Assembly: GCA_947642555.1 (NCBI GenBank)
Contig: CANRSX010000012.1
Span: forward strand, 1 to 64,000
Direction: 5' to 3'
Length of the DNA: 64,000 bases
Source of the DNA: an uncultured Roseburia sp.
GTDB lineage: Bacteria; Bacillota; Clostridia; Lachnospirales; Lachnospiraceae
The notes below the pieces were generated by a model. That model was not told where the DNA came from. It did not search any database and saw nothing but the letters and a program-made list of their open reading frames with translations. The translations under genes were made by a program, and so were the position numbers. Positions 8,296-37,074 of this stretch are shown one piece after another. The first letter of the stretch is position 1, and each line of letters begins with the position of its first letter.

Positions 8296-8333
8296 AACAT
8301 TCTCCCATAACAATCATTCTTTCACAAAAATAA

Positions 8334-12556: not shown

Positions 12557-13708
12557 TCACCACAAAAAGATCCCCGTTCCCGCCAGCTTACAGAGCGCCT
12601 CGATAAAATAATAATCCGCATAGCTCATGGTGATATGATGCGGACAGTCATGGTACGCCGGCGAGCAGTTCTGCACGATCGCGTCGCAGCCTTTGGTCCA
12701 GTCAGCCCGGGACGTATCGATCGCCCGAAGCAGCTTTACCGCGGCGCGGACATAGATCCCCTGTTCCGCTTCGGGGACATGGCGCGCCACCTCCAGCAGA
12801 CCGCCCGCTATGACGCAGGCTCCGCAGGAATCCTCCCATGCCGGCTCCTCTGGCTGTCTGAAGTCCACCGGCAGGATCCCGCTCTCCGGGATATTCGCGA
12901 TGCAGTAATGCGCCGCCTGCTTCGCGGTGTAAAGATACTCCTTCTTTCCCGTATGGGCATAGCTGTCTGCAAAGCCGTAAACCGCCCAGCCCTGGCCTCT
13001 CGTCCAGGAAGAGCCTTCTCCATACCCCTGGCCGCCATGGCTTTTTACGCACGCCCCGGTTTCCGGGTCAAACTCCACGATATGACAGGCGGAACCGTCC
13101 GGCCGGATAAAATGCTTCCGGACCGTATCCGCGTGCGTCACCGCGATCTGACGAAACCGCGGGTCGCCGCTCTCCTCCGAGGCCCAGTAGAGCAGGGAGA
13201 TATTCATCATGCAGTCGATGATCGCCCAGCCTCTCGTATCGCTGCCCGGAATGTCATTCCAGGCGCGGATATATCCGCCGGCCGGATTGAACCTCCCCGC
13301 AAGGAGATTTGCCGCATGCATACCGACACGTTTCGCATCCGCATTCCCGGTCAGGCGGTAATCCGCCACCGCGGTCGGAAGAAACATAAACCCGACGTCA
13401 TGGTGCAGCCCAAGGTAATCCGTGAAGCACCGCTCCATCTTCTTCCAGGATTTTCGCGCCGTCTCCTCATAGAGCGGCTCCTTCGTATCCTGCCAGAGCA
13501 GCCAGCAGATGCCGCCCCAGAAGCCGTTGGTCCACCAGTTTAACCCGTCGTCCGGCCCCCATTCCCGGTTCGGATCCGACCGGTCGTCATACGATCCGTT
13601 TTCGTCCGTGGTGTACGGAATCTTCTCTTTATTTTTTTCGATGACCCACGCCATCTTCTCTCTTACCTTCGTAAGCGTCTCTTTCGCCCATTCCTGATAT
13701 TCGTTCAT
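12557..13708 (-). CDS. GH88/GH105-type unsaturated uronyl hydrolase
   Basis: A 383-aa alpha/alpha-barrel enzyme. Motifs match unsaturated glucuronyl hydrolases: HHDVGFM and IIDCMMN carry the two catalytic aspartates, and GSSWTRGQGW lines the active site. These enzymes hydrate the C4-C5 double bond left by polysaccharide lyases and so release the uronic acid from the sugar it caps. There is no signal peptide, so it acts on imported oligosaccharide. ATG 13708 has an AGGAG RBS and lies 8 bp after the response-regulator stop. No polysaccharide lyase is in the window; it may be encoded elsewhere or supplied by other microbes. Confidence 0.9.
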   Translation of the reverse strand: MNEYQEWAKETLTKVREKMAWVIEKNKEKIPYTTDENGSYDDRSDPNREWGPDDGLNWWTNGFWGGICWLLWQDTKEPLYEETARKSWKKMERCFTDYLGLHHDVGFMFLPTAVADYRLTGNADAKRVGMHAANLLAGRFNPAGGYIRAWNDIPGSDTRGWAIIDCMMNISLLYWASEESGDPRFRQIAVTHADTVRKHFIRPDGSACHIVEFDPETGACVKSHGGQGYGEGSSWTRGQGWAVYGFADSYAHTGKKEYLYTAKQAAHYCIANIPESGILPVDFRQPEEPAWEDSCGACVIAGGLLEVARHVPEAEQGIYVRAAVKLLRAIDTSRADWTKGCDAIVQNCSPAYHDCPHHITMSYADYYFIEALCKLAGTGIFLW

Positions 13709-13715
13709 CGTCTCC

Positions 13716-15251
13716 TCATTTCTTTTTGTCACCGGCTCCTCCGGCGCGTTTCCGGTAGGAATTCGGCGTCTCATGATACACCCGCTGAAAATTTTCGGAA
13801 AACACCCGCGCGTCTCCGAACCCTACTTTTGTCGCTATCTCATAAACCTTCATATCAGAGGATACCAGCAGCGAGACCGCATGGCGGATTCTGACACGGT
13901 TTACATAATCTTTAAAATTTTCCCCCGCGTTCTTTTTAAAAAAGGAACTGAAATAATAGGGATTCATGTGAATTTCCTTTGCCAGCACCTCAAGCGTCAG
14001 ATTCTCCGCATAATGCTGATCGATATATACCTTCGCCTTCAAAAAATCCTGATTGATATGACTGGATATCGTATCGGAAAGCATCTGCAGATACTCCCGC
14101 AGGATCCCGTGAAATACCTCCTGCAGTTCCCTGTAATTCCGGCAGGACCGGCTTTTCTGCAGCAGCTCCTTCTCATCATATCCCGGGGACGGCATCGAGA
14201 GGTTTTTAAATTTTTCCTCCAGCGCCCGGGCGGTCGAACAGAGATAAAAGCATGCGTCCTCCTTTTTCCCGTCCGCCATCCTGCACAAAAGCTTTACCAG
14301 CTGTTCAAAATGTTTTTCAACGCCTTCCGCGTCCTGGGCGATCACCGCGTCGATCAGCTGCCCCTGTCTGCGCAGAAACGCTTCGTTTCCGCTCACCGGC
14401 GCAAAGGCAGGCTTCCCCTCCTGTAAAACCGGAAGCTCCATCTGATCCGCAAAATAAAAGTATTCCTGAAGGCTTAAGCAACGCTCGTAATCCAGCGGAA
14501 TCCCGCTCATATGCCCGACGGTTATCCCGATCACCAGCCCGATGGAGACGCCCAGCTTTTCGTATAATCTCTCCCGCAGGGTGATCACCGCACTGCGTCC
14601 CTCCTCCTGGCTCATTCCTTTTAGCACGATCACGATATCATTCCGCTTGTGAAACACAATCCCCATCTGATGCCGTTCCAGATAATCCTCGATAAAACTG
14701 AACACAGAGAAATGGAGCAGCTTCTTCATCTGCGGGCTCTCCTCCTGCGCAAAGACCTCCACATAGACCGGCAGATACTCCCCTTCCTCCAGAAATCCCG
14801 CATCCTGTGCGGACATCCCGTCGGGGAATCCTTCCCCGGCTCCGTCTTTCAGCGCCATGATGTCGCGCTCCAGCTCCTCCTGCCGCTGGTTGATGCATTT
14901 TCCGATCGCATGAAGCAGTTCCTCGCGGATCACCGGTTTTAACAGATACGCCACGGCGCCGTAGGAGATCCCCGCCTTCGCATATTCAAAGTCCTGAAAC
15001 CCGCTGATCAGGATAATTTTTGATTTTATTCCGAGAAGATAGCACTCCTTTAAGACCTCCACGCCGCTCATTTCCGGCATGGAGATGTCTAACAGCACAA
15101 GCTGGGGCTGATATTTCATAATCCCTTCCAGCGCCGACCGCCCGTCTGTGTACTGCCCGACGATCTCGATCCCCTGCGCTTCCCAGTCCACCAGTTTTCT
15201 GATTCCTGCAATGATCACCGGCTCATCGTCCGCCACGATCATTTTTATCAT
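13716..15251 (-). CDS. AraC-type response regulator (YesN-like)
   Basis: A 511-aa protein. The receiver domain is at the N-terminus (IVADDEPVI, phosphoacceptor Asp in LVLLDISMPEMSG, Lys in YLLKPV). The middle region of about 250 residues has no recognised motif. The C-terminal AraC double helix-turn-helix follows (LTLEVLAKEIHMNPYYFSSFFKKNAGENF, then KVYEIATKVGFGDARVFSENFQRVYHETP). The start ATG 15251 overlaps the kinase stop as ATGA; GTG 15263 is an alternative. It is expected to activate the CUT1 transporter operon in which it lies. Confidence 0.94.
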   Translation of the reverse strand: MIKMIVADDEPVIIAGIRKLVDWEAQGIEIVGQYTDGRSALEGIMKYQPQLVLLDISMPEMSGVEVLKECYLLGIKSKIILISGFQDFEYAKAGISYGAVAYLLKPVIREELLHAIGKCINQRQEELERDIMALKDGAGEGFPDGMSAQDAGFLEEGEYLPVYVEVFAQEESPQMKKLLHFSVFSFIEDYLERHQMGIVFHKRNDIVIVLKGMSQEEGRSAVITLRERLYEKLGVSIGLVIGITVGHMSGIPLDYERCLSLQEYFYFADQMELPVLQEGKPAFAPVSGNEAFLRRQGQLIDAVIAQDAEGVEKHFEQLVKLLCRMADGKKEDACFYLCSTARALEEKFKNLSMPSPGYDEKELLQKSRSCRNYRELQEVFHGILREYLQMLSDTISSHINQDFLKAKVYIDQHYAENLTLEVLAKEIHMNPYYFSSFFKKNAGENFKDYVNRVRIRHAVSLLVSSDMKVYEIATKVGFGDARVFSENFQRVYHETPNSYRKRAGGAGDKKK

Positions 15252-17089
15252 TCGCTCTTCCACGCGGTCTCCTCCCGTATCAGCGGCATCCGCACGCTCA
15301 CCATCGTCCCCACCTGCGGGGTGCTCGTCACCCGGATTCCATAGCCCTCCCCGTACAGATACCGGAGACGTTCATGAATATTTTTGATCCCGATGCTCTG
15401 CCAGTTGTATTCGTCCCGGATCCCCGGCGCGTCCCCCGACAGCAGCGCCTCAATCTTTTCCAGTGCCTGGCGGTCCATGCCGACGCCGTTATCAAACACA
15501 CAGATCTCCACGTCCTCCCCATCCTTAAGTGTCTCCACCCGGATGCTGCCGTTGCCGTTCTGGGGTTTGATGCCGTGAATATACGCATTCTCCACCATCG
15601 GCTGTAAAATCAGCTTCGGCACCATGATATTCCCAGTCTCTTCAATTGACGCGGAAAACAGCACCTTACAGGAAATCCTGCAGTTTAACAGATAAATGTA
15701 TTTGCGCACAATATCGATTTCCTTCTCCAGCGGCACCATATCCGACGCCGTACCGATCAGGTAATGGATCTGCACGGACAGCGCCTCGATCATCCGGGAT
15801 ACCCCCGGATCGTCGTTTTCCAGCGCGGTCATCCTGATAATTTCTAACGTATTATAGAGAAAATGCGGATAGATCTGGGATTTTAACGCCGTCAGCTCCG
15901 CTTCCTTCTGCCGCAGCCTGGCCCCGTAGGATTCGTTGATATATTTTTTCAGCGCCTGACTCATCTGATTAAAGCGGTCCGAGAGAATGTCGATCTCATT
16001 GGCCGAATGGACCGCGGGCTCCAGGTCAAAATTACCGTTCTCCACCTGCTCCATCTGCTTCATCATCTCATGGACCGGTCGGATCAGCGCCTTTGAAAAG
16101 AGCATGGAGCACACCACCAGCGCCGCCGCCGCAAGCGCCAGGATCAGATACATCAGGTTCTGCAGGGTCCGAAGCTCCATAAAGGCCAGCTTCGGGTCCA
16201 TCCGGACAACGACATACAGCCCGTAGTCCTCGATGCCGGTCGTGATTTTTATTCTCCCGTCCGGATCCGCCTCATCCTTAAGGAGGACGCCCAGATTCGT
16301 TCCGGGCGCCGTCCCGGTATTGCTGTAAAAGCAGTCCCCTGCGTCATTGATCACATAGAGCTCTTCCCCCGCGTGAAATCTCACCGTCCGAAAGATCTGC
16401 TCAAACCAGTGCAGATCAATGTCAAACAGCAGCGTCCCCACATATACCCGGTCCGCGATCTTCTCGCCGCGCAGGTCAAAATAATTCCTCGCAACCGTAA
16501 AGACCGGCTCGTTTACGCCGCTGTAATAATGCACCTCATGGGTGGGGATCAGGATCATCTGATTGCTTGTGAGATCCAGCTGCTGATATCCGGTCTCCTG
16601 CTCAAAGCTCTCCCCGGAAAGAAAATATCCGGAATAGGCGCGGTAATGAAAATCCCGCTGGTTCCCCTGCGCATCAAGCCCCACAAAATGAGCGGCGTTT
16701 AAATAGCTGTCCGTCCCCTCGATGTACCGGAGGAACTGCTGCATCTCTTCCTCCCTGCGCGCGTCCCGCTCCGCCGGATCATAATTATCCCCGTGCATAA
16801 TCTGACGCAGATTGTCATAGGTGCTGTATTTTCCGAGCAGCACCTCGCTGCCGTAATTATAGTCATACGGAATCTTTGAGATGGTATTATAGGAATCCAG
16901 CATTGCGTGAAGACTGCTGCTGACATAATAGGCCGCCTGCTCATACTGCACCTGCAGCATCTCATTATATTCCCGGACCATTCTGCCCGAGACAAAGACA
17001 GTCAGAAGCAGCATGGGGATCAGCCCCACCAGAATGATTGCCGCAGCAAATTTCTGAAATAATGTCAGATTCCGTAAAAAACGTTTCAT
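15248..17089 (-). CDS. Sensor histidine kinase (YesM-like)
   Basis: A 613-aa membrane kinase. A membrane segment near residues 12-33 and a second near 305-325 (LMYLILALAAAALVVCSMLF) bracket an extracellular sensor. The HAMP domain follows (LIRPVHEMMKQMEQVENGNF), then the His_kinase domain with phospho-His in QIYPHFLYNTLE and the HATPase motifs (DNGVGMD, GIGIKNIHERL-like). ATG 17089 has AGGAG upstream; GTG 17098 is less likely. It lies 30 bp after the permease gene and partners the overlapping response regulator. It probably senses the sugar or the loaded binding protein. Confidence 0.94.
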   Translation of the reverse strand: MKRFLRNLTLFQKFAAAIILVGLIPMLLLTVFVSGRMVREYNEMLQVQYEQAAYYVSSSLHAMLDSYNTISKIPYDYNYGSEVLLGKYSTYDNLRQIMHGDNYDPAERDARREEEMQQFLRYIEGTDSYLNAAHFVGLDAQGNQRDFHYRAYSGYFLSGESFEQETGYQQLDLTSNQMILIPTHEVHYYSGVNEPVFTVARNYFDLRGEKIADRVYVGTLLFDIDLHWFEQIFRTVRFHAGEELYVINDAGDCFYSNTGTAPGTNLGVLLKDEADPDGRIKITTGIEDYGLYVVVRMDPKLAFMELRTLQNLMYLILALAAAALVVCSMLFSKALIRPVHEMMKQMEQVENGNFDLEPAVHSANEIDILSDRFNQMSQALKKYINESYGARLRQKEAELTALKSQIYPHFLYNTLEIIRMTALENDDPGVSRMIEALSVQIHYLIGTASDMVPLEKEIDIVRKYIYLLNCRISCKVLFSASIEETGNIMVPKLILQPMVENAYIHGIKPQNGNGSIRVETLKDGEDVEICVFDNGVGMDRQALEKIEALLSGDAPGIRDEYNWQSIGIKNIHERLRYLYGEGYGIRVTSTPQVGTMVSVRMPLIREETAWKSE

Positions 17090-17119: not shown

Positions 17120-17959
17120 TTATCCCTTTGCCGCCCCGGCTGTGATTCCCTTCACAAAATACTTCTGAAACGCGCAGAAAATCACAAGCGCCGGCACAAT
17201 CGAGATGACGGTTCCCGCAAACACGATATCCCATCTCGCCGTATATTGTCCTACAAACGACGCTATCTCTACCGTAATCGTCTTCGGCTTTCCGCTGGGA
17301 AGCACGAGATAAGGCATCAGATAGTCGTTCCAGATCGACAGCCCGTTTAAGATCACCATGGAACCCGTACAGGGCCCCAGCAGCGGAAACGTCACCTTCC
17401 AGAAGGTCTGGAAGGGCGTGCACCCGTCGATCATCGCCGCCTCCTCGATCTCAAGGGGAATCCCCTTTAAAAAGCTGCAGTAGAGCAGGCATCCGAAGGG
17501 CACCGCGCCGGAAACTGCGATCACAATCGGACCCGCCATATTTCCGAACAGATGAAACAGCTTCATCTCCTTAAACAGCGGAAACATGTACAGGTGGAAC
17601 GGAATCATCATCCCCGCGAGAAAATAGGTGTAGATCAGCGAGGTCATCCTTCCCTTGCGCCGCTCGATCCCGTAGGCAGCCATCGGCACGATAAAGATGA
17701 TCAGGATCTCTGAAACCACCGTTAAGATCACGGAATTGCGGATCGCGCCGAGGAAATCCGACTGCTCGAACAGATCTTTAAAATTCTGCAGGTACAGCGA
17801 TCCCGGCAGCGCCGCGGGCGCCTTTAAGATATCGCCGTTGCTCTTAAACGCCGAAAACAGCGCAAAAAACACCGGATAGATAAAGAGAAACGCCAGCGCG
17901 ACCGTGACCGCAAACAGGATAATATCCTTTGGTTTTACCTTCTTTTTTCCACGTTCCAT
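17120..17959 (-). CDS. CUT1 ABC sugar transporter permease (MalG/AraQ-like)
   Basis: A 279-aa inner-membrane protein with about six hydrophobic segments. The ATPase-contact EAA loop is visible (EIEEAAMIDGCTPFQTFWKVTFPLLGP, written here as its key residues EEAA-DG). It starts one base from the stop of the first permease (TAGATG). No ABC ATPase is in the window, as is usual for Firmicute CUT1 systems that share a genomic MsmX-type ATPase. Confidence 0.94.
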   Translation of the reverse strand: MERGKKKVKPKDIILFAVTVALAFLFIYPVFFALFSAFKSNGDILKAPAALPGSLYLQNFKDLFEQSDFLGAIRNSVILTVVSEILIIFIVPMAAYGIERRKGRMTSLIYTYFLAGMMIPFHLYMFPLFKEMKLFHLFGNMAGPIVIAVSGAVPFGCLLYCSFLKGIPLEIEEAAMIDGCTPFQTFWKVTFPLLGPCTGSMVILNGLSIWNDYLMPYLVLPSGKPKTITVEIASFVGQYTARWDIVFAGTVISIVPALVIFCAFQKYFVKGITAGAAKG

Positions 17960-20344: not shown

Positions 20345-20391
20345 GTTTTTCCTCCTTCTGACGTCCTGTTGTACCGTCATCTTATGGTTCT

Positions 20392-20454
20392 ATTATATCA
20401 GCCGGTTTCTTCTGTAAAATTGGTTTTTTTAAGCAAAACATACGGATTTTTAAG
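20392..20454 (-). promoter_or_regulatory. Promoter and conserved upstream element of the sugar-ABC operon
   Basis: TATAAT (20397-20392 on the minus strand) is preceded by AT-rich DNA and an upstream block reading TTAAAAATCCGTATGTTTTG (from 20453 leftward) then CTTAAAAAAACC. The same block with a TAAAAT -10 box at the same distance precedes the SipW operon (29262-29323). It is a candidate activator site for the YesN-like regulator. Confidence 0.7.
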
Positions 20455-20456
20455 AT

Positions 20457-22220
20457 TTAATCCTCATCGGCATATTCAAAATAGTCAAAATCACAGTATT
20501 TCCCGAATCCGGTCAGATCCTGACAGCAGAGTCCCACCATGCCGCCCGTAAACCAGCCCTGGGTGCATGCCTCGTCCGATAAAAAGCTGCAGTCAAAGCA
20601 TTCCCCCACGGGCTCATACTCCGTCTGCTCCCCCGCGTGCCAGTAAAACTGCAGCATCTCCCGCCGCACCTGCACCTTAAAATAAATCCTCTCATGCTCC
20701 GGCGCCGGGATGTATCCCGCCGGATACGTGTACGCTTTGTTCTCCGCCCGCAGGATGCTGATGCATTTTCCCGCGTCCTCGTCCCGGCTCACGTGCAGAT
20801 ACAGATAGTTTTCCGTGTCATACATGACGATCAGCCCTGCCATCTGCTTAAAATAGTCCGGCTCAAATTCCATGCAGGTTAAGGCCGTAAAGCAAAAGGC
20901 GCTTCTCCTTCTCGCGATCAGGCTCTGCCGAAACAGCGAAGCAAGCCCCTCCCTTCCATACATCCGAAGCCATCCGGGCCGCGCCGTGAGGGAAAGGTAC
21001 TCCTCCGTCATCGGAATCCGAAGCGACTGGTACTCATTGTCAAGCCGCGGCGCGTCAAAATCATCCCGCGCCGGCTTCTCTGGGAACGGACATTCCGGAA
21101 GCGCCGGAGCCGTCACCTCCACATCCGCCAGCACAGTCCCGTTGCTTAGCTTTGGCCAGCCCTCATCCGTCCAGCGCACACGCTGGATCGCCGTCTCCCT
21201 GCCCAGCGGATAACGGCGCTCCCCGGCAAAGCGCGGCGCATCCGCCGGATTTCTGCTCTCCAAGGGGCGTCCGCACAGATGCACCATGTACCATTCTCCG
21301 GTCTGCGTCTGCACCAGATCCGCATGTCCCGCTTTCTGCAGCGGGTGATCCGGGTGATGCCTGGAGGTCAGAATGGAATAAGATTCGTCATTTGTCGTTC
21401 TTCCCGCTTTTTCACACCGGTACATCTCATAGGGACCCCAGACGGACCGCGCGCGCTGGATCGTCTGGCCATGCCCTTCCCCGGTTCCCGTGTCGGCTGA
21501 GAAGAGATAGTACCAGCCGTCCCGTTTGAAAATATGCGGCCCCTCAAGGAAAATCCGCGTCCCCTGATAGATTTCCCGCACCGGCCCCATCATCCGCCCG
21601 GCCACGGCATCATACTCCTGCAGGATGATCCGCCCTGCATATTTTTTCGGAACGCGGTGATCTGTGACCATGCTGACCATATACTTCCGCCCGTCGTCAT
21701 CGTGGAACAGGGAGGGATCAAAGCCGAAGTTGTTTAACGGTACCGGAGCGGACCAGGGGCCCATGATATCCTCCGCCGTCAGCAGATAATTTCTCGTGTC
21801 ATACATATTACAATAGAAGGAATTCACCACCGTACAAAGCAGCCAGAACTTCCCCTCCGCCCGGGTCAGGCACGGCGCCCAGATCCCCTGGGACGGGCCG
21901 ACGCCCTTTAAATCCAGCGCACCGACTACGTCCGGTGTACCGGCTGCGTTCGGTGTACCGGCTGCGCCCGGTGTACCGACTGCGTCCTGCGTGTCCGACT
22001 GCAGCCCGGTTTTTGTGGCCGGCGTCCCGGGACAGAACGCGTCCTGCGCGGTGGGCGCCGTCACATAGGTCAGCGTCTCCCAGTGCACAAGATCCCTGGA
22101 ATGGCTGATCCGGATGCCCGGCCACCACTCGAAGGTCGATGTCGCGATATAATAATCATCCCCGGCCCGCACGATGGACGGGTCGGGGTGGAAACCTCTT
22201 AAAATCGGATTCTGAATCAT
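20457..22220 (-). CDS. GH43 beta-xylosidase/arabinofuranosidase-like enzyme with C-terminal beta-sandwich
   Basis: A 587-aa enzyme without signal peptide. The five-bladed GH43 domain has the expected residues: Asp in GFHPDPSIV (base), Asp in FGFDPSLFHDDDG (pKa modulator) and Glu in IFLEGPHIF (acid). The C-terminal about 200 residues form the GH43_C2-type domain (FDAPRLDNEYQSLRIP, then LTARPGWLRM). A 24-residue insert rich in Gly-Thr-Pro-Ala (18-bp repeats, 21921-21992) sits in a loop before GIWAPCL. The start ATG 22220 overlaps the stop of the 53-aa membrane peptide gene, tying it to the surface-fibre operon. It is likely cytoplasmic and processes xylo-oligosaccharides. Confidence 0.93.
   Translation of the reverse strand: MIQNPILRGFHPDPSIVRAGDDYYIATSTFEWWPGIRISHSRDLVHWETLTYVTAPTAQDAFCPGTPATKTGLQSDTQDAVGTPGAAGTPNAAGTPDVVGALDLKGVGPSQGIWAPCLTRAEGKFWLLCTVVNSFYCNMYDTRNYLLTAEDIMGPWSAPVPLNNFGFDPSLFHDDDGRKYMVSMVTDHRVPKKYAGRIILQEYDAVAGRMMGPVREIYQGTRIFLEGPHIFKRDGWYYLFSADTGTGEGHGQTIQRARSVWGPYEMYRCEKAGRTTNDESYSILTSRHHPDHPLQKAGHADLVQTQTGEWYMVHLCGRPLESRNPADAPRFAGERRYPLGRETAIQRVRWTDEGWPKLSNGTVLADVEVTAPALPECPFPEKPARDDFDAPRLDNEYQSLRIPMTEEYLSLTARPGWLRMYGREGLASLFRQSLIARRRSAFCFTALTCMEFEPDYFKQMAGLIVMYDTENYLYLHVSRDEDAGKCISILRAENKAYTYPAGYIPAPEHERIYFKVQVRREMLQFYWHAGEQTEYEPVGECFDCSFLSDEACTQGWFTGGMVGLCCQDLTGFGKYCDFDYFEYADED
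21921..21992 (-). repeat. 18-bp tandem repeat (4 copies) in the GH43 catalytic domain
   Basis: Units start at 21921, 21939, 21957 and 21975 and encode GTPGAA/GTPNAA/GTPDVV-type hexapeptides. They lengthen a surface loop of the propeller domain. Confidence 0.93.
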
Positions 22221-22378
22221 GCTGTTTCTCCTGTTTTCTCTCTTTTTTCAAATTCCTTTTCCCGCTGTCTCTGCCGCAGGATATGTGCGGCCAGCGCCAC
22301 AGCCATGGCGACAAGCAGGATTAGCGCGGGGATATCCCACACGCAGAAGCCAAAACTGACAAGTAACATCTCTTTCAT
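22217..22378 (-). CDS. 53-aa single-pass membrane peptide
   Basis: A short gene: ATG 22378, GGAGG seven bases upstream, stop 22217-22219 overlapping the GH43 start (ATGA). The product is MKEMLLVSFGFCVWDIPAL, then a hydrophobic stretch ILLVAMAVALAAHIL, then a charged tail RQRQREKEFEKREKTGETA. One membrane helix with a basic/acidic cytoplasmic tail is predicted. The function is unknown; its place between the anchor-like 322-aa protein and GH43 suggests a role in the fibre system. Codon use and RBS make it more than a chance frame. Confidence 0.75.
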   Translation of the reverse strand: MKEMLLVSFGFCVWDIPALILLVAMAVALAAHILRQRQREKEFEKREKTGETA

Positions 22379-22412
22379 CACACAACCTCCATACGTTTAC
22401 TTTTCCCGTGAC

Positions 22413-23381
22413 CTATCTTCCGCCGGTTCTGCTTCTTCGCTCAAATTCCAGCTGCTGCGCACGCCTGCGGCTGTAAATATAACCTGCCTCCAGAAGCATC
22501 GCAAGAAGCAGCAGGATGTAGTGCAGGATACAGTGCACATGCCTGCCGGCTTTCATTCCGGCAAGCGGTACTTCCCCGTCCTTTGGATCTGTCACAAGCT
22601 CCGGAGCCCCGCCGTCCTCCTCATTCGCAAGGGGAACGCCGTTTTCATCCACATCCACGAGATCCTCACCGGTATCCCCCGCGTCCGCGGCATCCCCGGC
22701 TACGCCCCCGGCATCCCCGGCTGCACCGGGGAGAGCGTTTATGATCGCAGTCAGAAGGCCGCCTCCCTCTGCCGGAGATCCGGTGGCTGTCACCGGCTCC
22801 CCGTAAATGACCTGCTGCCCGCCAAAGACTCCTCCGCCGGTGCCGCCGGCGGGAGGATCCAGTTCTTCCACCTTAAACTGCCAGGTCAGATGTCCCACGG
22901 CATTTTGAAATTCATTTCCCATGGTAACCGGCACCTCCAGCGTCAGATCAAGGGTCACACTGGCGCCGTGGGCAAAGGTGCCCAGGCTGACCCAGTCGCT
23001 TAATCCTGCCGTGCCGGACGCCGGTCCGGTATACAGTTCGGAGCTGTCGTTCTGACGGATCGTAAGCGTCAGCTGATCCAGGAAACCTTCCGTGTCCTCC
23101 TGCACACCCGCCAGGCGCAGATATATTACTACATCCGCCTCTGTTTCTGCATTGTTTTTTACAACGATCTGATCCGTCCGCACATCCCCCGGCATGATGT
23201 CTTTCAGGCCGGAAAACAGGTCCGTGGGCGATTCCTCACTGCCGGGTGCAAAGACAAACAGCCCCGACTGTCCCTCATAGCTGACAGAGCCGCCCTCCGC
23301 CCCGTAAGCGGTGGCTGTCACGGCAAGGAATGCGCACAGCGCCGCCATCAGCACAACAATCCGTTTTCCCGTCTTTCTCAT
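22413..23381 (-). CDS. Secreted, C-terminally membrane-anchored protein of the SipW/TasA-like operon
   Basis: A 322-aa protein with a classical signal peptide (MRKTGKRIVVLMAALCAFLA, cleavage near ATAYG), an extracellular beta-rich domain (MPGDVRTDQIVVKNNAETEA typical of TasA/camelysin-type folds), a Gly/Ala/Asp-rich linker, then a C-terminal helix (CILHYILLLLAMLLEAGYIY) and a basic tail. There is no LPXTG; a PLAG segment precedes the helix. It may anchor or cap fibres at the membrane. The start overlaps the upstream stop as ATGA, so the genes are translationally coupled. Confidence 0.8.
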   Translation of the reverse strand: MRKTGKRIVVLMAALCAFLAVTATAYGAEGGSVSYEGQSGLFVFAPGSEESPTDLFSGLKDIMPGDVRTDQIVVKNNAETEADVVIYLRLAGVQEDTEGFLDQLTLTIRQNDSSELYTGPASGTAGLSDWVSLGTFAHGASVTLDLTLEVPVTMGNEFQNAVGHLTWQFKVEELDPPAGGTGGGVFGGQQVIYGEPVTATGSPAEGGGLLTAIINALPGAAGDAGGVAGDAADAGDTGEDLVDVDENGVPLANEEDGGAPELVTDPKDGEVPLAGMKAGRHVHCILHYILLLLAMLLEAGYIYSRRRAQQLEFERRSRTGGR

Positions 23382-24019
23382 GGCTGCACCTCCTCACCGG
23401 CTGCGGGCAGAGCCACACTCCAGCCCTTTTTGTCCGTATCGTACCGCATTCCCCAGGCCTCCTTTACCGCGGCCTCCGGGGTGATCTGGACGGCCTGGGC
23501 GAGGACGTCGACGCAGAGACTGCAGTCTGTCTCCCCGCTTTCCGGCGCTGCGCCCGGTGTGACGGTATAGCTGCCGAAGGGCACGGTGACAGGCACGGCT
23601 TCGCTCCCCTCCGCAGGGGCGGCCGCACCGGCCGGGTACTGATAATACCAGAAGCCGTCCGCACCCTCCTGCCAGCCGGCGCCGGGCGTAAACTCCCATG
23701 CGTCCTCCGCCGGAGCGGCCAGCACATTTCCCGCCGCGTCCTTCCAGGAGCCGGCCACCCGCGCCCGCAGGTATACGGCATAATCCGTGTTGGAAACCTG
23801 TATCGTGATATCCGTTCCGCCATCTCCCGCGCTCATGATCACCGCAGGGCCGACGGCATTTACCGGTTCAAATGTGTTCGTCGTCTCCGTCTCTTTTGTC
23901 AGATACGCCATCGTCGCTCCGGCGCTTACTCCCAGGATCAGCAGAAGGGAAACAGACAGTATGAGGGCCTTTGCCGGATGTTTTATCCGTTTCCGTTCCT
24001 GACTCTGATTGTCATTCAT
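23378..24019 (-). CDS. SipW-dependent surface protein (TasA/camelysin-like), no. 4
   Basis: A 213-aa protein with the SipW-type leader: basic start, hydrophobic LILSVSLLLILGVSAG, then ATMAYLTKETETTNTF. The mature part has a domain rich in Tyr, Trp and Gly (GFWYYQYPAG) and ends acidic. The preferred start is the second ATG (24019), with GGAGG seven bases upstream. It is probably processed by the SipW peptidase of this operon and exported as a fibre or matrix subunit. Confidence 0.85.
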   Translation of the reverse strand: MNDNQSQERKRIKHPAKALILSVSLLLILGVSAGATMAYLTKETETTNTFEPVNAVGPAVIMSAGDGGTDITIQVSNTDYAVYLRARVAGSWKDAAGNVLAAPAEDAWEFTPGAGWQEGADGFWYYQYPAGAAAPAEGSEAVPVTVPFGSYTVTPGAAPESGETDCSLCVDVLAQAVQITPEAAVKEAWGMRYDTDKKGWSVALPAAGEEVQP

Positions 24020-24035
24020 TGTCATGCCTCCTCTC

Positions 24036-26297
24036 TCAGTCGCTGCCGGCTGTGACGCCGGATAACAGCCTGCTTACGGCTTCTCCGAAAAGCCAGGATG
24101 TATTTGTTCCCCCGGCGCGGAATGCGGTTGTCGCCGACTCATTCTTTTTTACTTCGACCCTGTTTTCCTGTGTGCCATTCCAGCTCCAGGACTGTTCGCG
24201 CACCGTGTAGTTCCCGGCCGGCAGGCCCTTTACCGTCACGGATCCGCCGCCGGTGAGCATGACTTCCTTTGTATAATTGCCGTCTTCCGAATGGATCGTA
24301 TATACCGCCGTCGCGCCGCCTGCATCCTGTTCTTTCGCAATGACCAGATCGCCGACGGTTTTTTCCAGCGTGGCGGTAAATGTCAGCGTCTCACCCGCTG
24401 CCAGCGCCGGCATGGTCTCCGGGACATCCCCTGGCCAGCCGCTCCACACATAGCCGAAGGGGGCGGTGATCTCCGGTGGTGTGATCTTCGCTTCATACCG
24501 GTACTCTTCCGTCCGGTCCAGGGAATGATCCTCCGGTCTGTCGGAAATTCTCACAATCCAGTGAGCCGGATAAGAAAGTCGTTTGTAGTAAATATCAATC
24601 CTTGCCGTCCCGTCTTCGCTGATCACAGGATTTCCTGCCTCATCTTCGCTGTTACACTCTGTCTTTTCATACAGGAAACCGGCAAATTCTTTCTGCGTAT
24701 ATCGGGAAAGGTCGATCTGCGTGCCGAATTTCCCGGAGCCGGTGACCGGTTCCCCTGCCGCTTCCGTGTAGGTCCTGTCATTTTCCGGGCAGTCCGGATC
24801 CTCAAGATGGTAGTGAACGGTATAATCCTTTTCATCACGTTTGTAGTACACTTTAATGACGACCTCTCCGCCCTCCGATGTGATCATCAGCCTGTCACTT
24901 CCCGGAACGGCCGGATCAATCGGAACCTCGCGGCCTTCCTCTATCACCTGAACCGCCTGCCTTACGGTATAATTCGGATATTTATCCGTCTGATAGGAAA
25001 TGACATCTCCGGTTTTCCCTGGCTGACTCTCTGGATCCGTGTCCGTCAGTTCCGGCTCCCCGGCCGCATTGTCTTTGTAATACTGTACTGTATAAGAGCC
25101 TTCCAGGGGTTTCCACTGGGCGTAGAGGGTCAGGTTTCCGGTGGTCTGAAAGGTCTGTCCCGCCTCATACTTCGGATCCGCCACACCGGCATCCGGATCG
25201 GTGTTCCATCCCAGAAACGCATATCCTTCCCGTGATGGCCGGACGGTACTCACAGTCATACGCTGCGAGGTTCCTTCCGTGCCGGTGGTATAGCCCTCTG
25301 TAATACCAAAACCATGCTGTCCTTCCTGATCAAAGACGACCGGATTTTCTGTGCCGTCGTTCATCCGGTAGGTTACTGTGATGGGCGCTATCACATACAT
25401 TGTTACGCAATGCTTCTCGAGTCCATGCCCCGGACCTTTCGCGCTTTGTAAAACGGCATTTTCGCCTGCTGCTGCATCTGCCCTGACGCTGACCTTTGCA
25501 TGATTATGCTGATATGTATCTACCTCATTACCGCCGATCCATTTTTTATTATAAGGAAGCAGGCCTTTGTTCGCTATCAGTACCTCTATCCTTTCATCTT
25601 CAGGCGGCGTATCCCACTGCCACCAGCAATACAGGGCTCCACTATTTTCCCGTTCTACTGTATATACTGCTCCCTGCGGAACATAAATGACAATATCACC
25701 AGCTTTGTTTGTCTGAAGAATCTTATCACCCTCTACCCTGTGATATATATTGTCATCTGTTTTTGTATAAATTCCAGGATTACTTTCTGCCAACACCGCC
25801 GCATCCTTTGTCAGCATCCCGTCCGGCATTGCATCCATCTCCGGCAGTTCGTCTCCGGTCAGCTCGTCCTCTGTCCCGGGCTCTGCCACGGTGTCCTGAT
25901 TGTTTTCGTCCGTAGTCAGATCTGCCGCATCCAGGGCAGGAATTTCCGCCGCATCCGGGACAGGAATTTCCGACTCTTCCGCGTCCGGGATCTCCGACTC
26001 TTCCGCGTCCGACGTTTCCGCCGCGTCAAATGTATTCCCGTCATCCGCCGGTGGGAGCACGATTTCTTTCGTGATCTGCGAACCCGTCGCGGGCGCACCC
26101 GTCTCTAAAGCGTTTGCTTCCGTCGTATCATTCTCACGCGTATCCGTTTCTGTCCCGGACACCGTCTCATTCAGATCCTCCCCCGGCATCGGGTCCTCCA
26201 TGATCACCGCGTTTTCCTCGATTGCCCGAAGCACCGGCCACGGGAGAGCAAGCATCACTGCAAAAACCAGTACGACTGTCAATATCCGTTTTTTCAC
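24036..26297 (-). CDS. Large secreted adhesin with InlB-B/MucBP-like repeats and a CnaB-like end
   Basis: A 753-aa protein. The signal peptide (KKRILTVVLVFAVMLALPWPVLRA) is followed by about 120 acidic low-complexity residues with 24-bp repeats. Next come an InlB B-type (Listeria-Bacteroides) repeat (GYAFLGWNTDPDAGVADP, then LTLYAQW), two MucBP-like modules (YTVQYYKDNAAGEPEL, then YTVHYHLEDPDCPEN) and a CnaB/SpaA-like domain (GDLVIAKEQDAGGATAVYTI, then GLPAGNYTVREQSW). No C-terminal anchor is visible, so it may associate with the SipW-dependent fibres. GTG 26297 overlaps the upstream stop (GTGA). Confidence 0.85.
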   Translation of the reverse strand: MKKRILTVVLVFAVMLALPWPVLRAIEENAVIMEDPMPGEDLNETVSGTETDTRENDTTEANALETGAPATGSQITKEIVLPPADDGNTFDAAETSDAEESEIPDAEESEIPVPDAAEIPALDAADLTTDENNQDTVAEPGTEDELTGDELPEMDAMPDGMLTKDAAVLAESNPGIYTKTDDNIYHRVEGDKILQTNKAGDIVIYVPQGAVYTVERENSGALYCWWQWDTPPEDERIEVLIANKGLLPYNKKWIGGNEVDTYQHNHAKVSVRADAAAGENAVLQSAKGPGHGLEKHCVTMYVIAPITVTYRMNDGTENPVVFDQEGQHGFGITEGYTTGTEGTSQRMTVSTVRPSREGYAFLGWNTDPDAGVADPKYEAGQTFQTTGNLTLYAQWKPLEGSYTVQYYKDNAAGEPELTDTDPESQPGKTGDVISYQTDKYPNYTVRQAVQVIEEGREVPIDPAVPGSDRLMITSEGGEVVIKVYYKRDEKDYTVHYHLEDPDCPENDRTYTEAAGEPVTGSGKFGTQIDLSRYTQKEFAGFLYEKTECNSEDEAGNPVISEDGTARIDIYYKRLSYPAHWIVRISDRPEDHSLDRTEEYRYEAKITPPEITAPFGYVWSGWPGDVPETMPALAAGETLTFTATLEKTVGDLVIAKEQDAGGATAVYTIHSEDGNYTKEVMLTGGGSVTVKGLPAGNYTVREQSWSWNGTQENRVEVKKNESATTAFRAGGTNTSWLFGEAVSRLLSGVTAGSD
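25921..26028 (-). repeat. 24-bp tandem repeat (over 4 copies) in the adhesin
   Basis: Units start at about 25921, 25945, 25969 and 25993. They encode octapeptides of the DAEESEIP / DAAEIPAL type and form an acidic stalk. Confidence 0.85.
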
Positions 26298-26890
26298 TGG
26301 CGTTCACTCCCTTCCTCCGAATCTTCCGGCCATCCAAAGGCATCCCACACGGTGGCACCGTTGTGCTCGCTCTGCACCCCGTACGCACTTACATTCAACG
26401 TAAAATTCTTTCCCAGGTATGCATTGTCAACCTTCGGGCCATCGACGACTACCTCTGTAAAAAGTTCCGGTGTCGTCTCCCCGGCCTCCAGCACATCCAG
26501 ATAGTAGTAATATCCGTCATCCTCCCGGTAGGTCCAGGATTCCTCATTGACATCGATCTTTAAGCATTCCTTTGCGGTGGGGCTCAGCGCGTCTTCCCTG
26601 CCCTGAGCATCCGTTACGCCTGTCACGATCTTTACGCGCAGATACATTGGATGTCCGCCCGTATTCTCCACCGTGACGCTCTTTTCGATTGTCTGCCCGG
26701 GTATGACCTGCATACTCCCTGCCGGAAGCAGCTCCCCGTATACCGTCCGGTCATGGAGCTTTAAGTCAAGATTTCCCGCGGTGATCACACTGTCAGCCTC
26801 AGCCTCAGCGGTAAAATATGCCAGTGTTCCCGTGGAAGACAGCGCCAGGACGGCAATGCTTCCGAATACAGCCGCTAATTTCCGCTTCAT
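26294..26890 (-). CDS. SipW-dependent surface protein (TasA/camelysin-like), no. 3
   Basis: A 198-aa protein with a textbook SipW-type leader (MKRKLAAVFGSIAVLALSST, then GTLAYFTAEAEADSVITAGNLDL), closest to TasA/CalY of the set. The mature domain has VIPGQTIEKSVTVENTGGHP and a Tyr-rich strand (DDGYYYYLDV). It is predicted to be cut after GTLA and exported as a fibre subunit. ATG 26890 is preferred to TTG 26899 on RBS spacing. Its stop overlaps the adhesin start. Confidence 0.9.
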   Translation of the reverse strand: MKRKLAAVFGSIAVLALSSTGTLAYFTAEAEADSVITAGNLDLKLHDRTVYGELLPAGSMQVIPGQTIEKSVTVENTGGHPMYLRVKIVTGVTDAQGREDALSPTAKECLKIDVNEESWTYREDDGYYYYLDVLEAGETTPELFTEVVVDGPKVDNAYLGKNFTLNVSAYGVQSEHNGATVWDAFGWPEDSEEGSERQ

Positions 26891-26978
26891 ATTCCGCAAT
26901 ACTCCTCTCTATATATCCCCCATTGTCAAAGCAGGACGTCTTCTGTTATCCCCCTCATCCATGCCATGATCCGGTCTG

Positions 26979-27683
26979 TCATGTGTCTGGAAAGCAGATC
27001 TGAAAGATCGCGGCAGGATCCGTCGTATTTCCGTCCTCCGTACCCGTCACCGCCTGGGTCAGATATCCGTAAAAATTTATCTGCCCCTTCGCACCGGTTC
27101 CGGTATCAGAGGCGGATCCGATCACGATCTCCTGATCCTGAAGGATATTGATACGGCCCTGCTCTGTCTGATCATTCACCACACCTTTTCTGTAAAAATA
27201 TACCTGCCCTCCGTGGGGTCCTCTCGCCATCTCTTTTTCCTCTGTCAGGAGCAGGGTCCAGTTCTCCTCATCCATCCGCCAGTCCATATTTTCATTCTCC
27301 GCCGTCTGATCCACGACCTCCACATACAGGTATGCCGGAAGCTCTGTTTTTCCCGAAATCTCAATAACCGGATCCTTCGGAATCCGGATGCCGGGCACTG
27401 CAGCGTATGTCTGTCCCGTCACGGTTTTCGCATCCGGCAGTATCTCATATGCGCCGGAAGGAATCTCATTTCCGGACGCATCCCGCACCATAACCGGCGT
27501 CGCCTCATGCTCGGTCAGCGTAAAACTCCCTCCTGCCGCCAGCAGTCTTCCGCCGCCGGATGCGATAAATGTATTTTCCACTCTCCCGGCCGATTCCGCA
27601 AGATAAGAGAGACTTCCTGCGACAGATGTCATGCAGACTGCTGCCAGGGCTGTCAGTGCCAGTATTTTTTTCCTTCTGTCCAT
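26979..27683 (-). CDS. SipW-dependent surface protein, no. 2
   Basis: A 234-aa protein with a leader MDRRKKILALTALAAVCMTS, then VAGSLSYLAESAGRVENTF, which matches the SipW class although Ser replaces Ala before the Tyr. The mature part begins Gly-rich, then has a beta-rich domain (PGIRIPKDPVIEISGKTE, then LPAYLYVEVVD). The same KDP-x(n)-AYLYVEVVD pattern is seen in protein no. 1 (PKDPQLFLDL, VFVKIID), so both may belong to one family. ATG 27683 has AGGAGG six bases upstream; a longer frame upstream lies in the SipW 3' end and is unlikely. Confidence 0.87.
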   Translation of the reverse strand: MDRRKKILALTALAAVCMTSVAGSLSYLAESAGRVENTFIASGGGRLLAAGGSFTLTEHEATPVMVRDASGNEIPSGAYEILPDAKTVTGQTYAAVPGIRIPKDPVIEISGKTELPAYLYVEVVDQTAENENMDWRMDEENWTLLLTEEKEMARGPHGGQVYFYRKGVVNDQTEQGRINILQDQEIVIGSASDTGTGAKGQINFYGYLTQAVTGTEDGNTTDPAAIFQICFPDT

Positions 27684-27694
27684 TCCGTTCCTCC

Positions 27695-28297
27695 TCACAC
27701 CTGTTCTCCCGTTCTGGCTGTATCCGCCCTTTCGTCGCACCGCTTCTTACGCTCCGCCGCCTTTTTTTCCGAATCAGGCTTTATGAGCTCCGGCAGAAGA
27801 AAGAGGAGCACCAGCGCAAAAAAGACGGCAATTCCGGCATAGCGCCCCGACGCGCCTGTCAGATATGCCGAAAGATATCCCAGCTTTGGAAGGGAAAATC
27901 GCACAACGCCCACCACATTTTCATAAAGCACCGGAGCCGCATCCCTGCTGTCATTGGCATCTCCCTTTGTGTAAAAGCAGCGATTTTCCCGATCCACCTC
28001 CGCCACACGGTGGGTGACCACCGTCAGATTTTTATCCGCGGTAAATGTAATCACGTCTCCTGTTCCGATCTTCTCCGGATCTGTCTCCTTTACATAGACC
28101 AGATCGCCGACCCCGTACTCCGGCGTCATGGACGCGGACAGAACCGCATACGGCGTAAACCCGAAAAGCCTGACCCCCGCCAGCGCCACCGCCAAAAATG
28201 CGATGCAGCCGACGAACAGCCAGGTAATGCCATTCCATATGTTCCGCAAACTCCCCGTCCGCTTTTTCCTTTGCCCTCTTCCTGTTTCCTTCCTCAT
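27695..28297 (-). CDS. sipW: Type I signal peptidase, SipW (ER/archaeal) type
   Basis: A 200-aa membrane peptidase. The order is an N-terminal helix (NGITWLFVGCIAFLAVALAG), catalytic Ser in AVLSASMTPEYGVGD, box with His in VVTHRV (His replaces the bacterial Lys, hallmark of the ER/SipW class), a GDAND motif (YTKGDANDSRD), and a C-terminal helix (IAVFFALVLLFLLPEL). It cleaves the leaders of the co-encoded TasA-like proteins. ATG 28297 is chosen; a longer open frame runs upstream through the hairpin at 28388-28435 but lacks codon-like character. It stops 11 bp before the next gene. Confidence 0.93.
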   Translation of the reverse strand: MRKETGRGQRKKRTGSLRNIWNGITWLFVGCIAFLAVALAGVRLFGFTPYAVLSASMTPEYGVGDLVYVKETDPEKIGTGDVITFTADKNLTVVTHRVAEVDRENRCFYTKGDANDSRDAAPVLYENVVGVVRFSLPKLGYLSAYLTGASGRYAGIAVFFALVLLFLLPELIKPDSEKKAAERKKRCDERADTARTGEQV

Positions 28298-28387
28298 GCT
28301 GCAGCATCCCTCCATTTCGTGCCAGACCGGTGTCCTTCCACTTTCCCGGCGTTTCTGCCCCGCAGGCTTCCTTTTTCCTGCCCGTAA

Positions 28388-28435
28388 CAGGGTACCGATC
28401 AGAATCCGCTGCCGCGGGTGCTGATCGGTACCCTG
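28388..28435 (-). promoter_or_regulatory. 15-bp perfect hairpin between first fibre gene and sipW
   Basis: Arms 28388-28402 and 28421-28435 are exact complements with an 18-base loop, and no T-run follows. It probably sets a high ratio of the first subunit to the rest of the operon. Confidence 0.8.
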
Positions 28436-28466
28436 TCTCCCGTAAGAGACAGAGTATCTTCTCCTC

Positions 28467-29186
28467 TTATGGCTCCGTCGGCGCCGGTGCGGGTACCGCA
28501 TCCGGGAAGCACGCCTCAAATGCCTCTTTCGCATTTTCAAATCCGCCTGCCTGGCATACATACGCCTCAAACTTCAGCTCGCCGAGCTGCATTCCCGGGG
28601 TTGTTTCATCCACATCCACAGGATTCTGGCTGACCGTAACCATATCGTTTTTTAAAACAGAGCGGCCCGTAAATTCCACCGTCGGTTTGCCCTTTTTGTC
28701 TCCGATATGACTGTCTGGTCCGATGGTATAGATCCCCTCCAGCCCCTCTACCGGTTTCACCCACGTTTCCAGCCCATATGTAAGATTTCCCTGTGTGGTG
28801 TCAATGATTTTCACAAATACCCAGGCATCCGCTTTTGCCGCAAGATCCAGAAACAGCTGCGGATCCTTCGGCAGCTCCATCCCCGGCACAACCTGATCAT
28901 AGATATTGTCAAGGGCATAATTCTCCTCGTTCAGATAGTAGGTCGACGTACCGGGATCATAGCCGCAGGTATGCTCCACCAGATAAAACCCGTCCTGCAC
29001 CCCGTCGATCGGAGCCTTCAGTGTCGAATCCGGCTCAATCAGCCCCGCCATGCTGAATGTGTTGACCACTCCGTTTCCGTCCTTCTCGCTCTGCCTTGCC
29101 GTCAGATATGCCAGCGTTCCGGTTGTCCCGATTCCTCCGACCAGTGTAAGCGCCAGTGCTGCCAGCGCTGCTTTCTTTTTGTTCAT
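28467..29186 (-). CDS. SipW-dependent surface protein (probable major fibre subunit), no. 1
   Basis: A 239-aa protein, first gene of the operon, with leader MNKKKAALAALALTLVGGIG, then TTGTLAYLTARQSEKDGNGVVNTFSMAGL. The mature domain has IYDQVVPGMELPKDPQLFLDLA and ends Pro-rich. A strong RBS (AGGAGGAACGGAGT) and the hairpin after the gene fit high expression. It may be the most abundant extracellular subunit. Confidence 0.88.
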   Translation of the reverse strand: MNKKKAALAALALTLVGGIGTTGTLAYLTARQSEKDGNGVVNTFSMAGLIEPDSTLKAPIDGVQDGFYLVEHTCGYDPGTSTYYLNEENYALDNIYDQVVPGMELPKDPQLFLDLAAKADAWVFVKIIDTTQGNLTYGLETWVKPVEGLEGIYTIGPDSHIGDKKGKPTVEFTGRSVLKNDMVTVSQNPVDVDETTPGMQLGELKFEAYVCQAGGFENAKEAFEACFPDAVPAPAPTEP

Positions 29187-29261
29187 ACTCCGTTCCTCCT
29201 GCTTTTCTTTTTCCGAAACAGTGTTCTGCCAGCCGCATCCTCTGTTCCGTTTGATAAATCT

Positions 29262-29323
29262 ATTTTATCAGCAGATTTATGATAAAAAGTCAGTTTATTT
29301 AAGAACAAAATACGGATTTTTAG
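29262..29323 (-). promoter_or_regulatory. Promoter and conserved upstream element of the SipW operon
   Basis: A -10 box TAAAAT (29267-29262) is preceded by an AT-rich region and an upstream block CTAAAAATCCGTATTTTGTT from 29323. The block and the distance to the -10 match the element at 20392-20454 before the sugar-ABC operon, without gaps over the 39 bases nearest the -10. This is evidence for a shared activator. Confidence 0.7.
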
Positions 29324-29344
29324 TCACTTTGTACTGCAAAATCT

Positions 29345-29380
29345 AAAAAAAGACACCTGAACCCATATGGCTCAGATGTC
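29345..29380 (-). terminator. Intrinsic terminator of the AAA-ATPase gene
   Basis: On the minus strand GACATCTGAGCC-ATAT-GGGTTCAGGTGTC forms a stem and is followed by seven T (29351-29345). It lies 12 bp after the stop codon at 29392. Confidence 0.92.
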
Positions 29381-29391
29381 CTTTCCTATTC

Positions 29392-36925: not shown

Positions 36926-37013
36926 AACAACCTCCTGTTTTCCGCCTCTTTGTCCGGCAGTTTTCACATGCTTCCTTTGTTGTTATGATTATAGGTATTT
37001 CGACAGATTTATC

Positions 37014-37043
37014 TTGTCAGAATTTTATCCTGTATGTTAAAAT
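37014..37043 (+). promoter_or_regulatory. Promoter of the AraC regulator within a divergent region
   Basis: TTGTCA (37014-37019), 18-bp spacer, TAAAAT (37038-37043). An imperfect dyad, GACAGAT-x-ATCTTGTC (37002-37018), overlaps the -35 box. A minus-strand TATAAT (36993-36988) probably serves the symporter gene. Shared control by the AraC protein is likely. Confidence 0.65.
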
Positions 37044-37074
37044 ATTATCACTTTTTATGAAAAGAGAATTTTCT

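Follow-up and report, generated by a model that had tools for sequence, protein, structure and literature searches.

Among the closest described relatives of the locus treated here is the Clostridium perfringens sipW-bsaABCRSD operon, which depends for its expression on a two-component system that it itself encodes and is expressed more strongly at lower temperature (PMC7395162). Bacillus subtilis tapA-sipW-tasA and B. cereus sipW-tasA/calY both encode TasA/camelysin-type subunits that are processed by SipW. The former is controlled via SinR (PMC13082335). On the side of sugar regulation, XydS/XydR of C. cellulolyticum comprises a histidine kinase (HK) and an AraC-type response regulator (RR) that respond to straw by controlling separated genes for extracellular, hemicellulose-related proteins; the two upstream regions bound have common features, the authors report no site upstream of the system's own genes, and the targets are CBM6-containing enzymes, not fibre genes (PMC3572039). 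Here we describe a locus in a 64,000-nt stretch of an uncultured Roseburia sp. genome (assembly GCA_947642555.1, contig CANRSX010000012.1, positions 1 to 64,000; hereafter the window), in which a SipW/TasA-type fibre cassette, a glycoside hydrolase family 43 (GH43) gene and a sugar importer operon follow one another on the minus strand.

We favour, as fairly probable, a reading in which the fibre cassette is driven by its own copy of the sugar-import promoter, is activated by glycan sensing through the two-component system and carries GH43 as its terminal gene. Like the C. perfringens operon, the window pairs a SipW-type peptidase with a BsaA protein in one operon (its protein T3 passes TIGR04090), whereas the C. 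perfringens two-component system lies inside the fibre operon and that of the window lies in the sugar importer operon, which has a similar promoter. The two Bacillus operons resemble the window in their type of subunit and are not known to include a large adhesin, an LPxTG-type anchor or a sugar operon. The sequence suggests that the locus is a two-component-controlled SipW fibre operon, a known kind, in which sharing of a promoter with a sugar importer would be the new element; no SipW fibre operon with such sharing was recognised in the literature, within our partial coverage of it.

The following sites bear on this reading:

29253..29323, minus strand: proposed fibre promoter/operator, made up of a direct repeat of TAAAAA type with a spacing of about 21-22 bp and an extended -10 TGATAAAAT
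20383..20453, minus strand: proposed importer-operon promoter/operator, resembling the fibre promoter
29341..29383, minus strand: intrinsic terminator (stem and T run) of the upstream AAA-ATPase/PDDEXK gene

Aligned without gaps, the fibre and importer promoters have 51 of 71 positions in common, while the next best match, in the window and 155 loci together (2.45 Mb, both strands), reaches 39/71. A 24-nt box taken from the importer site, with up to three mismatches allowed, is found at two sites in the window (0 and 2 mismatches; 0 expected from 100 shuffles), and once the positions that differ between these sites are left open, the box occurs exactly at these two places only in the 4.99-Mb genome, where the reversed box used as a control gave no match. 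The only further genomic site within two mismatches lies inside a coding gene for an MBOAT protein and is regarded as chance. Direct repeats of about 21-bp spacing fit an AraC-type activator. That the repeat spacing and the -10 are conserved although 20 of 71 positions differ suggests a maintained function.

A comparable layout lies upstream of the importer in related operons of other genomes (described below). A layout pattern in which an AT-rich direct repeat with a spacing of about 21 bp precedes an extended -10 has six matches in 2.50 Mb, which are the importer promoters of the window and of loci L077, L080, L081, L082 and L089, with none elsewhere. Among the relatives, the importer promoters of L080, L082 and L089 agree with that of L081 at 52-63 of 71 positions, the L077 promoter agrees with that of L081 at 38/71, and an offset scan scores the 21-bp repeat at 11-12/14 in L080, L081, L082 and L089. 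The relatives' own box occurs once per genome, upstream of the importer, in three of the four relatives' genomes searched. The helix-turn-helix (HTH) of the RR is 64-71% identical to that of the window in the five loci with the layout and 52% identical in L098.

The terminator upstream of the fibre promoter (29383-29341; folding dG -22.4 kcal/mol, z -7.45) is predicted to close the upstream gene and to insulate the fibre promoter. It was listed by our own scan, which takes perfect stems of at least 7 pairs, and not by a simpler one. Besides it, our scan finds no intergenic minus-strand terminator between 8.0 and 33.5 kb (the GH43 gene itself contains one match), and neither scan lists a minus-strand terminator-like site between the fibre genes and GH43. 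One weak promoter-like match (9/12) falls within the ANC gene at 22504-22476, and such matches occur in the region at chance level (11 found against a shuffle mean of 9.7). The fibre genes and GH43 are therefore probably co-transcribed, as read from the sequence, and because no intergenic terminator appears down to 8.0 kb, the fibre transcript can take in GH43 and may extend into the importer operon. Rfam gave no match in the window.

The fibre cassette comprises eight genes running from 29186 to 22217:

28467..29186, minus strand: T1, secreted TasA/camelysin-like protein with a SipW-type leader; TIGR04088 16.4 bits, slightly below the cut-off of 19; 17 homologues besides itself
27695..28297, minus strand: SipW-type signal peptidase; the open frame reaches 28570, and the start near 28297 was placed by eye; scanned as 27695-28453, it scores 99.5 bits on TIGR02228 (archaeal/SipW class; cut-off 51.85) and 31.1 bits on PF10502
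26979..27740 (start perhaps 27683), minus strand: T2, secreted protein with a SipW-like leader seen by eye only; no family match in profile scans
26294..26899, minus strand: T3, BsaA/TasA/camelysin-family protein over cut-off on TIGR04090 (61.7 against 60), TIGR04088 (30.1 against 19) and PF12389, Peptidase_M73 (30.5 against 22.5)
24036..26297, minus strand: ADH, 753-aa modular adhesin-like protein with a W-L-x-G tail; List_Bact repeat (PF09479) over cut-off at 39.8 bits, SpaA domain (PF17802) just short of it (23.0 against 23.1)
23378..24025, minus strand: T4, secreted protein with a SipW-type leader; TIGR04088 17.8 bits, slightly below the cut-off of 19
22413..23381, minus strand: ANC, beta-rich secreted protein with a C-terminal membrane helix (anchor), so described from an alignment; NF033073 18.9 (cut-off 48)
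22217..22381, minus strand: MP54, small one-helix membrane peptide, 54 aa from GTG or 53 aa from the next ATG; no family over cut-off in profile scans

A preliminary description of this DNA, made from the letters alone, had seen an overlapping minus-strand run with a Ser/His-type signal peptidase, and both are borne out: the run extends from 29186 to 20457, with 4-nt overlaps at T3/ADH, T4/ANC and MP54/GH43 (ATGA at the last), and the peptidase clears the model of the archaeal/SipW class and shows the Ser/His pair, the latter read by eye. It scores under cut-off on the Bacillus-specific SipW equivalog NF046067 (81.4 against 190), and T3 is far under that of the TasA equivalog NF046066 (15.7 against 450). 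Three further claims held in part. Of the four SipW-type leaders described, that of T3 passes curated cut-offs, those of T1 and T4 score just below, and that of T2 has no family match; the MucBP/CnaB adhesin retains its List_Bact repeat and a SpaA domain marginally under threshold, MucBP being rejected for want of a Pfam match at E<=0.1; and the 53-aa membrane peptide has that length from ATG, not from GTG. With a SipW/archaeal-type peptidase beside a TasA/camelysin/BsaA-family subunit, the run classifies by its predicted domains as a putative SipW-dependent TasA/BsaA fibre operon. It does not have the makeup of a sortase-anchored pilus locus with a sortase gene and an LPxTG substrate: profile scans, confined to proteins of the run, gave no sortase match, the tail of ANC departs from PxTG, and ADH has no LPxTG within its last 80 residues.

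None of the adhesins of the window and of L187, L188, L189 and L190 has LPxTG within its last 80 residues, and all five carry a C-terminal W-L-x-G motif, possibly an assembly recognition signal used with T4 or ANC. T4 has a 32.7% identical counterpart in L187, adjoining the ADH and ANC homologues, and T2 has weak matches in L188 and L189. In the ANC alignment, P-x-T-G precedes the final helix in 10 of the 15 other rows; the window protein departs from PxTG with a variant tail that also occurs in P0121. Compared with most aligned relatives, ANC combines a long Gly/Ala/Asp-rich spacer with a non-canonical anchor. No MP54-like peptide was recognised downstream of the anchor gene in six cassette loci. 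Predicted structures of ANC and T1 were too uncertain to serve as evidence (mean predicted local distance difference test, pLDDT, 62.6 and 65.5), and the fold searches were likewise set aside: for ANC the TasA entry 5of2 came at rank 21 (TMt 0.40), below unrelated entries, and for T1 nothing was significant.

Directly after MP54 comes GH43, and 109 bp past the end of GH43 the importer operon starts:

20457..22220, minus strand: GH43 beta-xylosidase-type enzyme; GH43 (PF04616) 275.5 bits and GH43_C2 (PF17851) 202.9 bits
18920..20344, minus strand: sugar ABC solute-binding protein (SBP); PF01547 115.1 bits
17960..18847 and 17120..17959, minus strand: two ABC permeases; PF00528 59.2 and 67.6 bits
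15248..17098, minus strand: YesM-type HK; PF06580, HAMP and HATPase_c over cut-off
13716..15263, minus strand: YesN-type RR with an AraC HTH (PF00072, PF12833), proposed activator of both promoters
12557..13774, minus strand: GH88, an unsaturated-glucuronyl-hydrolase relative; PF07470 47.5 bits
8420..12563, minus strand: in order, a ROK protein, a phosphomannose-isomerase-like protein and an 800-aa weakly GH42-like protein, under cut-off on both GH42 models

We take the kinase and regulator to be of the YesM and YesN types, a naming that is ours; the domain matches are what is observed. With an SBP, two permeases, a His_kinase-type HK and a REC-AraC RR in one run, the operon has the makeup of a YesM/YesN-regulated sugar ABC operon. 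By its domains and its homology to solved beta-xylosidases, GH43 is predicted to be a beta-xylosidase-type enzyme: the nearest solved sequence is a xylan beta-1,4-xylosidase (1yrz, E 2.2e-158), the other near solved relatives are likewise annotated as beta-xylosidases, and no leader is seen by eye. A Gly/Ala/Thr/Pro-rich insertion adjoins the catalytic domain of GH43 at residues ~55-100; 11 of 12 aligned homologues are shorter (544-568 aa), and the twelfth (P0001) is 98% identical. GH88 is nearest to 1vd5 among solved sequences (E 1.9e-60), its closest class being the unsaturated glucuronyl hydrolases. Since GH43 lies near beta-xylosidases and GH88 near unsaturated glucuronyl hydrolases, what is imported is probably an oligosaccharide whose ends are of the xylose type and unsaturated uronic. 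The substrate may, instead of plant xylan, be another glucuronic-acid-containing glycan, because the importer operon holds the GH88 relative, the ROK protein and the phosphomannose-isomerase-like protein.

We then compared GH43 neighbourhoods. A genome collection was scanned with a 13-sequence GH43 alignment, and the best 80 loci were taken with up to 10 kb per side (11 of them are under 15 kb long). By tblastn at E<=1e-3, T1, the peptidase, T2, T3, T4, ANC and MP54 have no match in any of the 80, and the repeat region of ADH has a weak match in one (L153, Paenibacillus; best E 8.5e-6). In 21 of the 80 loci the flanks fetched contain GH88 (in L089 at a distance of 8 kb from GH43). An importer SBP of at least 60% identity occurs in six (L077, L080, L081, L082, L089 and L098), together with permeases, HK and RR; apart from L098, these loci have an SBP 71-80% identical to that of the window, adjoined by permeases 74-84% identical. 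The records of the closest sugar-operon loci bear the names Hungatella, Lachnospiraceae or uncultured bacterium, and within the genus of the window (62 genomes, its own included) the best GH43 by E-value outside its own genome is 42% identical. Three of the related operons (L080, L081 and L082) have the order GH88-GH43-SBP-permease-permease-HK-RR, the same as the window from GH43 on and with a similar promoter layout upstream of the SBP; unlike the window, they have no fibre genes, and GH88 lies ahead of GH43 instead of after the RR. Because GH88 and the importer are its recurring neighbours and the fibre genes are not, GH43 most likely arrived with the sugar operon and would by ancestry not be a fibre gene.

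The fibre module in turn recurs in other genomes without GH43. SipW-type peptidases (E<=1e-10) are found in 19 of the 62 genomes of the genus, and the anchor family (E<=1e-8) in at least 30 of 397 genomes of the family, own genome included in both counts; the latter is a lower bound, as up to seven first-look candidates per genome were scored. We fetched 20 stretches around peptidase matches (two from the window's own genome; five further listed places were left out) and 12 around anchor matches, from 12 of the 30 genomes. In none of these 32 is there a GH43 match at E<=1e-3; in L063, from the window's own genome, a distantly homologous SBP (26.5%) lies about 8 kb away from the peptidase, and L197 has a receiver-domain match. 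The order SipW, TasA-like proteins, ADH, T4 and ANC is that of the window in L188, L189 and L190, and L187, which ends at a contig edge, keeps ADH-T4-ANC. Unlike the window, all three complete cassettes have a tyrosine-recombinase-like gene upstream (E 4.5e-27 to 1.4e-40, under equivalog cut-offs), and the gene after the anchor is sortase-like in L189 (slightly under cut-off) and L190 (over cut-off) and SpoIID-like in L188. In the gap between recombinase and cassette, L188 (17930-18281) and L190 (17409-17719), of two genera, have inverted repeats of the ACATAATTCA..ATGT type, 20-24 bp long and 263-312 bp apart, an arrangement that looks like an invertible, phase-variable promoter. No such repeats lie between the recombinase-like gene and the cassette of L189, and the window fibre promoter shows an 11-nt pair at most, regarded as chance.

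In the mechanism we propose, the kinase would sense a glycan or its fragments outside the cell, and the YesN-type RR of the operon would most likely activate both promoters. The inducing glycan would probably contain glucuronic acid and xylose, and the importer, GH43 and GH88 would serve its uptake and trimming. Once processed by SipW, the TasA-like subunits could join ADH and ANC in a surface structure able to hold the cell to the glycan. The fibre transcript would end in, or pass through, GH43; since it would reach this gene, a glycan-holding fibre and a cytoplasmic trimming enzyme would be made together. As to origin, it is possible, if somewhat doubtful, that a cassette which elsewhere lies beside a recombinase and is perhaps phase-variable was captured by a glycan-sensing two-component regulon through a second operator copy, such that the fibre is made only when the glycan is sensed and imported.

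Several observations weigh against this reading. The layout pattern was made by hand after the sites had been seen and is post hoc, its informative part being the lack of other matches, and the fibre promoter fails it by its first letter, the first half-site beginning with C. The relatives' importer promoters agree with those of the window at 30-37 of 71 positions, within background (39); linking them by plain identity was rejected on this ground, and the tie to the relatives rests on layout because letter identity does not exceed background. The upstream region of the L098 importer shows no such box, and the relatives' box was not found in the L089 genome. The window repeats score weakly in the repeat-offset scan (fibre 11/14 at 22 bp; importer 10/14 at 21 bp, tied with 19 bp). 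A sigma-70 scan listed neither proposed promoter, as would be expected if both lack a good -35 and depend on an activator. Three of the four claimed SipW substrates (T1, T2 and T4) miss the leader cut-off, MP54 is without known role, and the shared box could be bound by a different regulator. Among the loci examined, the arrangement of fibre genes and GH43 is found in one genome only, and a recent chance juxtaposition is possible.

Such a juxtaposition would mean that the fibre cassette is mobile and inserted upstream of GH43, that the box is a leftover or duplicate of the original GH43/importer promoter and that no selected link joins fibre and sugar. It would account for a neighbourhood found in no other locus examined and for the recombinase that adjoins the cassette in L188, L189 and L190, and the third-codon-position G+C content (GC3) fits it as well, being lower in most fibre genes (0.55-0.64; T4 0.71) than in the sugar operon (0.65-0.74), a contrast consistent with different origins. 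The intact reading frames and the overlap with GH43 argue the other way, as do the repeat spacing and -10 kept despite 20 differences, and we regard this explanation as unlikely, though one to be reckoned with. Much less probable still is a dedicated xylan-binding fibre operon with a terminal beta-xylosidase, conserved as a unit. The MP54/GH43 overlap and the xylosidase names of the closest solved GH43s speak for it; the unit is absent from the 80 GH43 and 32 peptidase/anchor loci, the recurring partner of GH43 is GH88 and, less often, the importer, and GH88 itself is closest to the unsaturated glucuronyl hydrolases. The preliminary description had envisaged such a conserved neighbourhood, and this part of it is not supported; a lack of conservation in relatives was among the outcomes it had itself named as refuting. 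Its GH43 identification and the continuity of fibre genes and GH43 stand, and its idea of a glycan-responsive fibre gains from the shared promoter, which it had not seen, its coordinates ending before the importer operon. It is also improbable, if a little less so than the conserved xylan unit, that the fibre genes form a general biofilm-matrix operon and that the box is a site of a broader, sugar-unrelated regulator. A global site should recur, and the box is exact only twice in the genome; the fibre run (29186-22217) has no recognisable regulator gene. The C. perfringens operon lends this view some support, being temperature-responsive and dependent on its own BsaRS two-component system (PMC7395162).

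The region is flanked by two AAA-ATPase-like proteins (PF09820; 3348-4475 and 29392-31116), the second with a PDDEXK_9 nuclease domain. Within the window, an open frame at 6121-8313 joins a KAP P-loop NTPase domain to a methyltransferase domain, and at 35564-38334 an AraC-type regulator diverges from a gene for a sugar transporter of the major facilitator superfamily (MFS), which makes up another small sugar locus close by.

If the locus is a fibre cassette under a copy of the sugar-import promoter, a TasA/SipW-type fibre would be tied to the sensing of one glycan and would have, in addition to biofilm structure, a purpose that can be tested, namely keeping hold of food. The arrangement would offer a simple handle, with one regulator, two similar promoters and one inducer to identify. 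If the cassette was indeed captured by the regulon, surface capture and uptake would be coupled in a Gram-positive-type bacterium, and the locus would represent the regulatory capture of an adhesion cassette.

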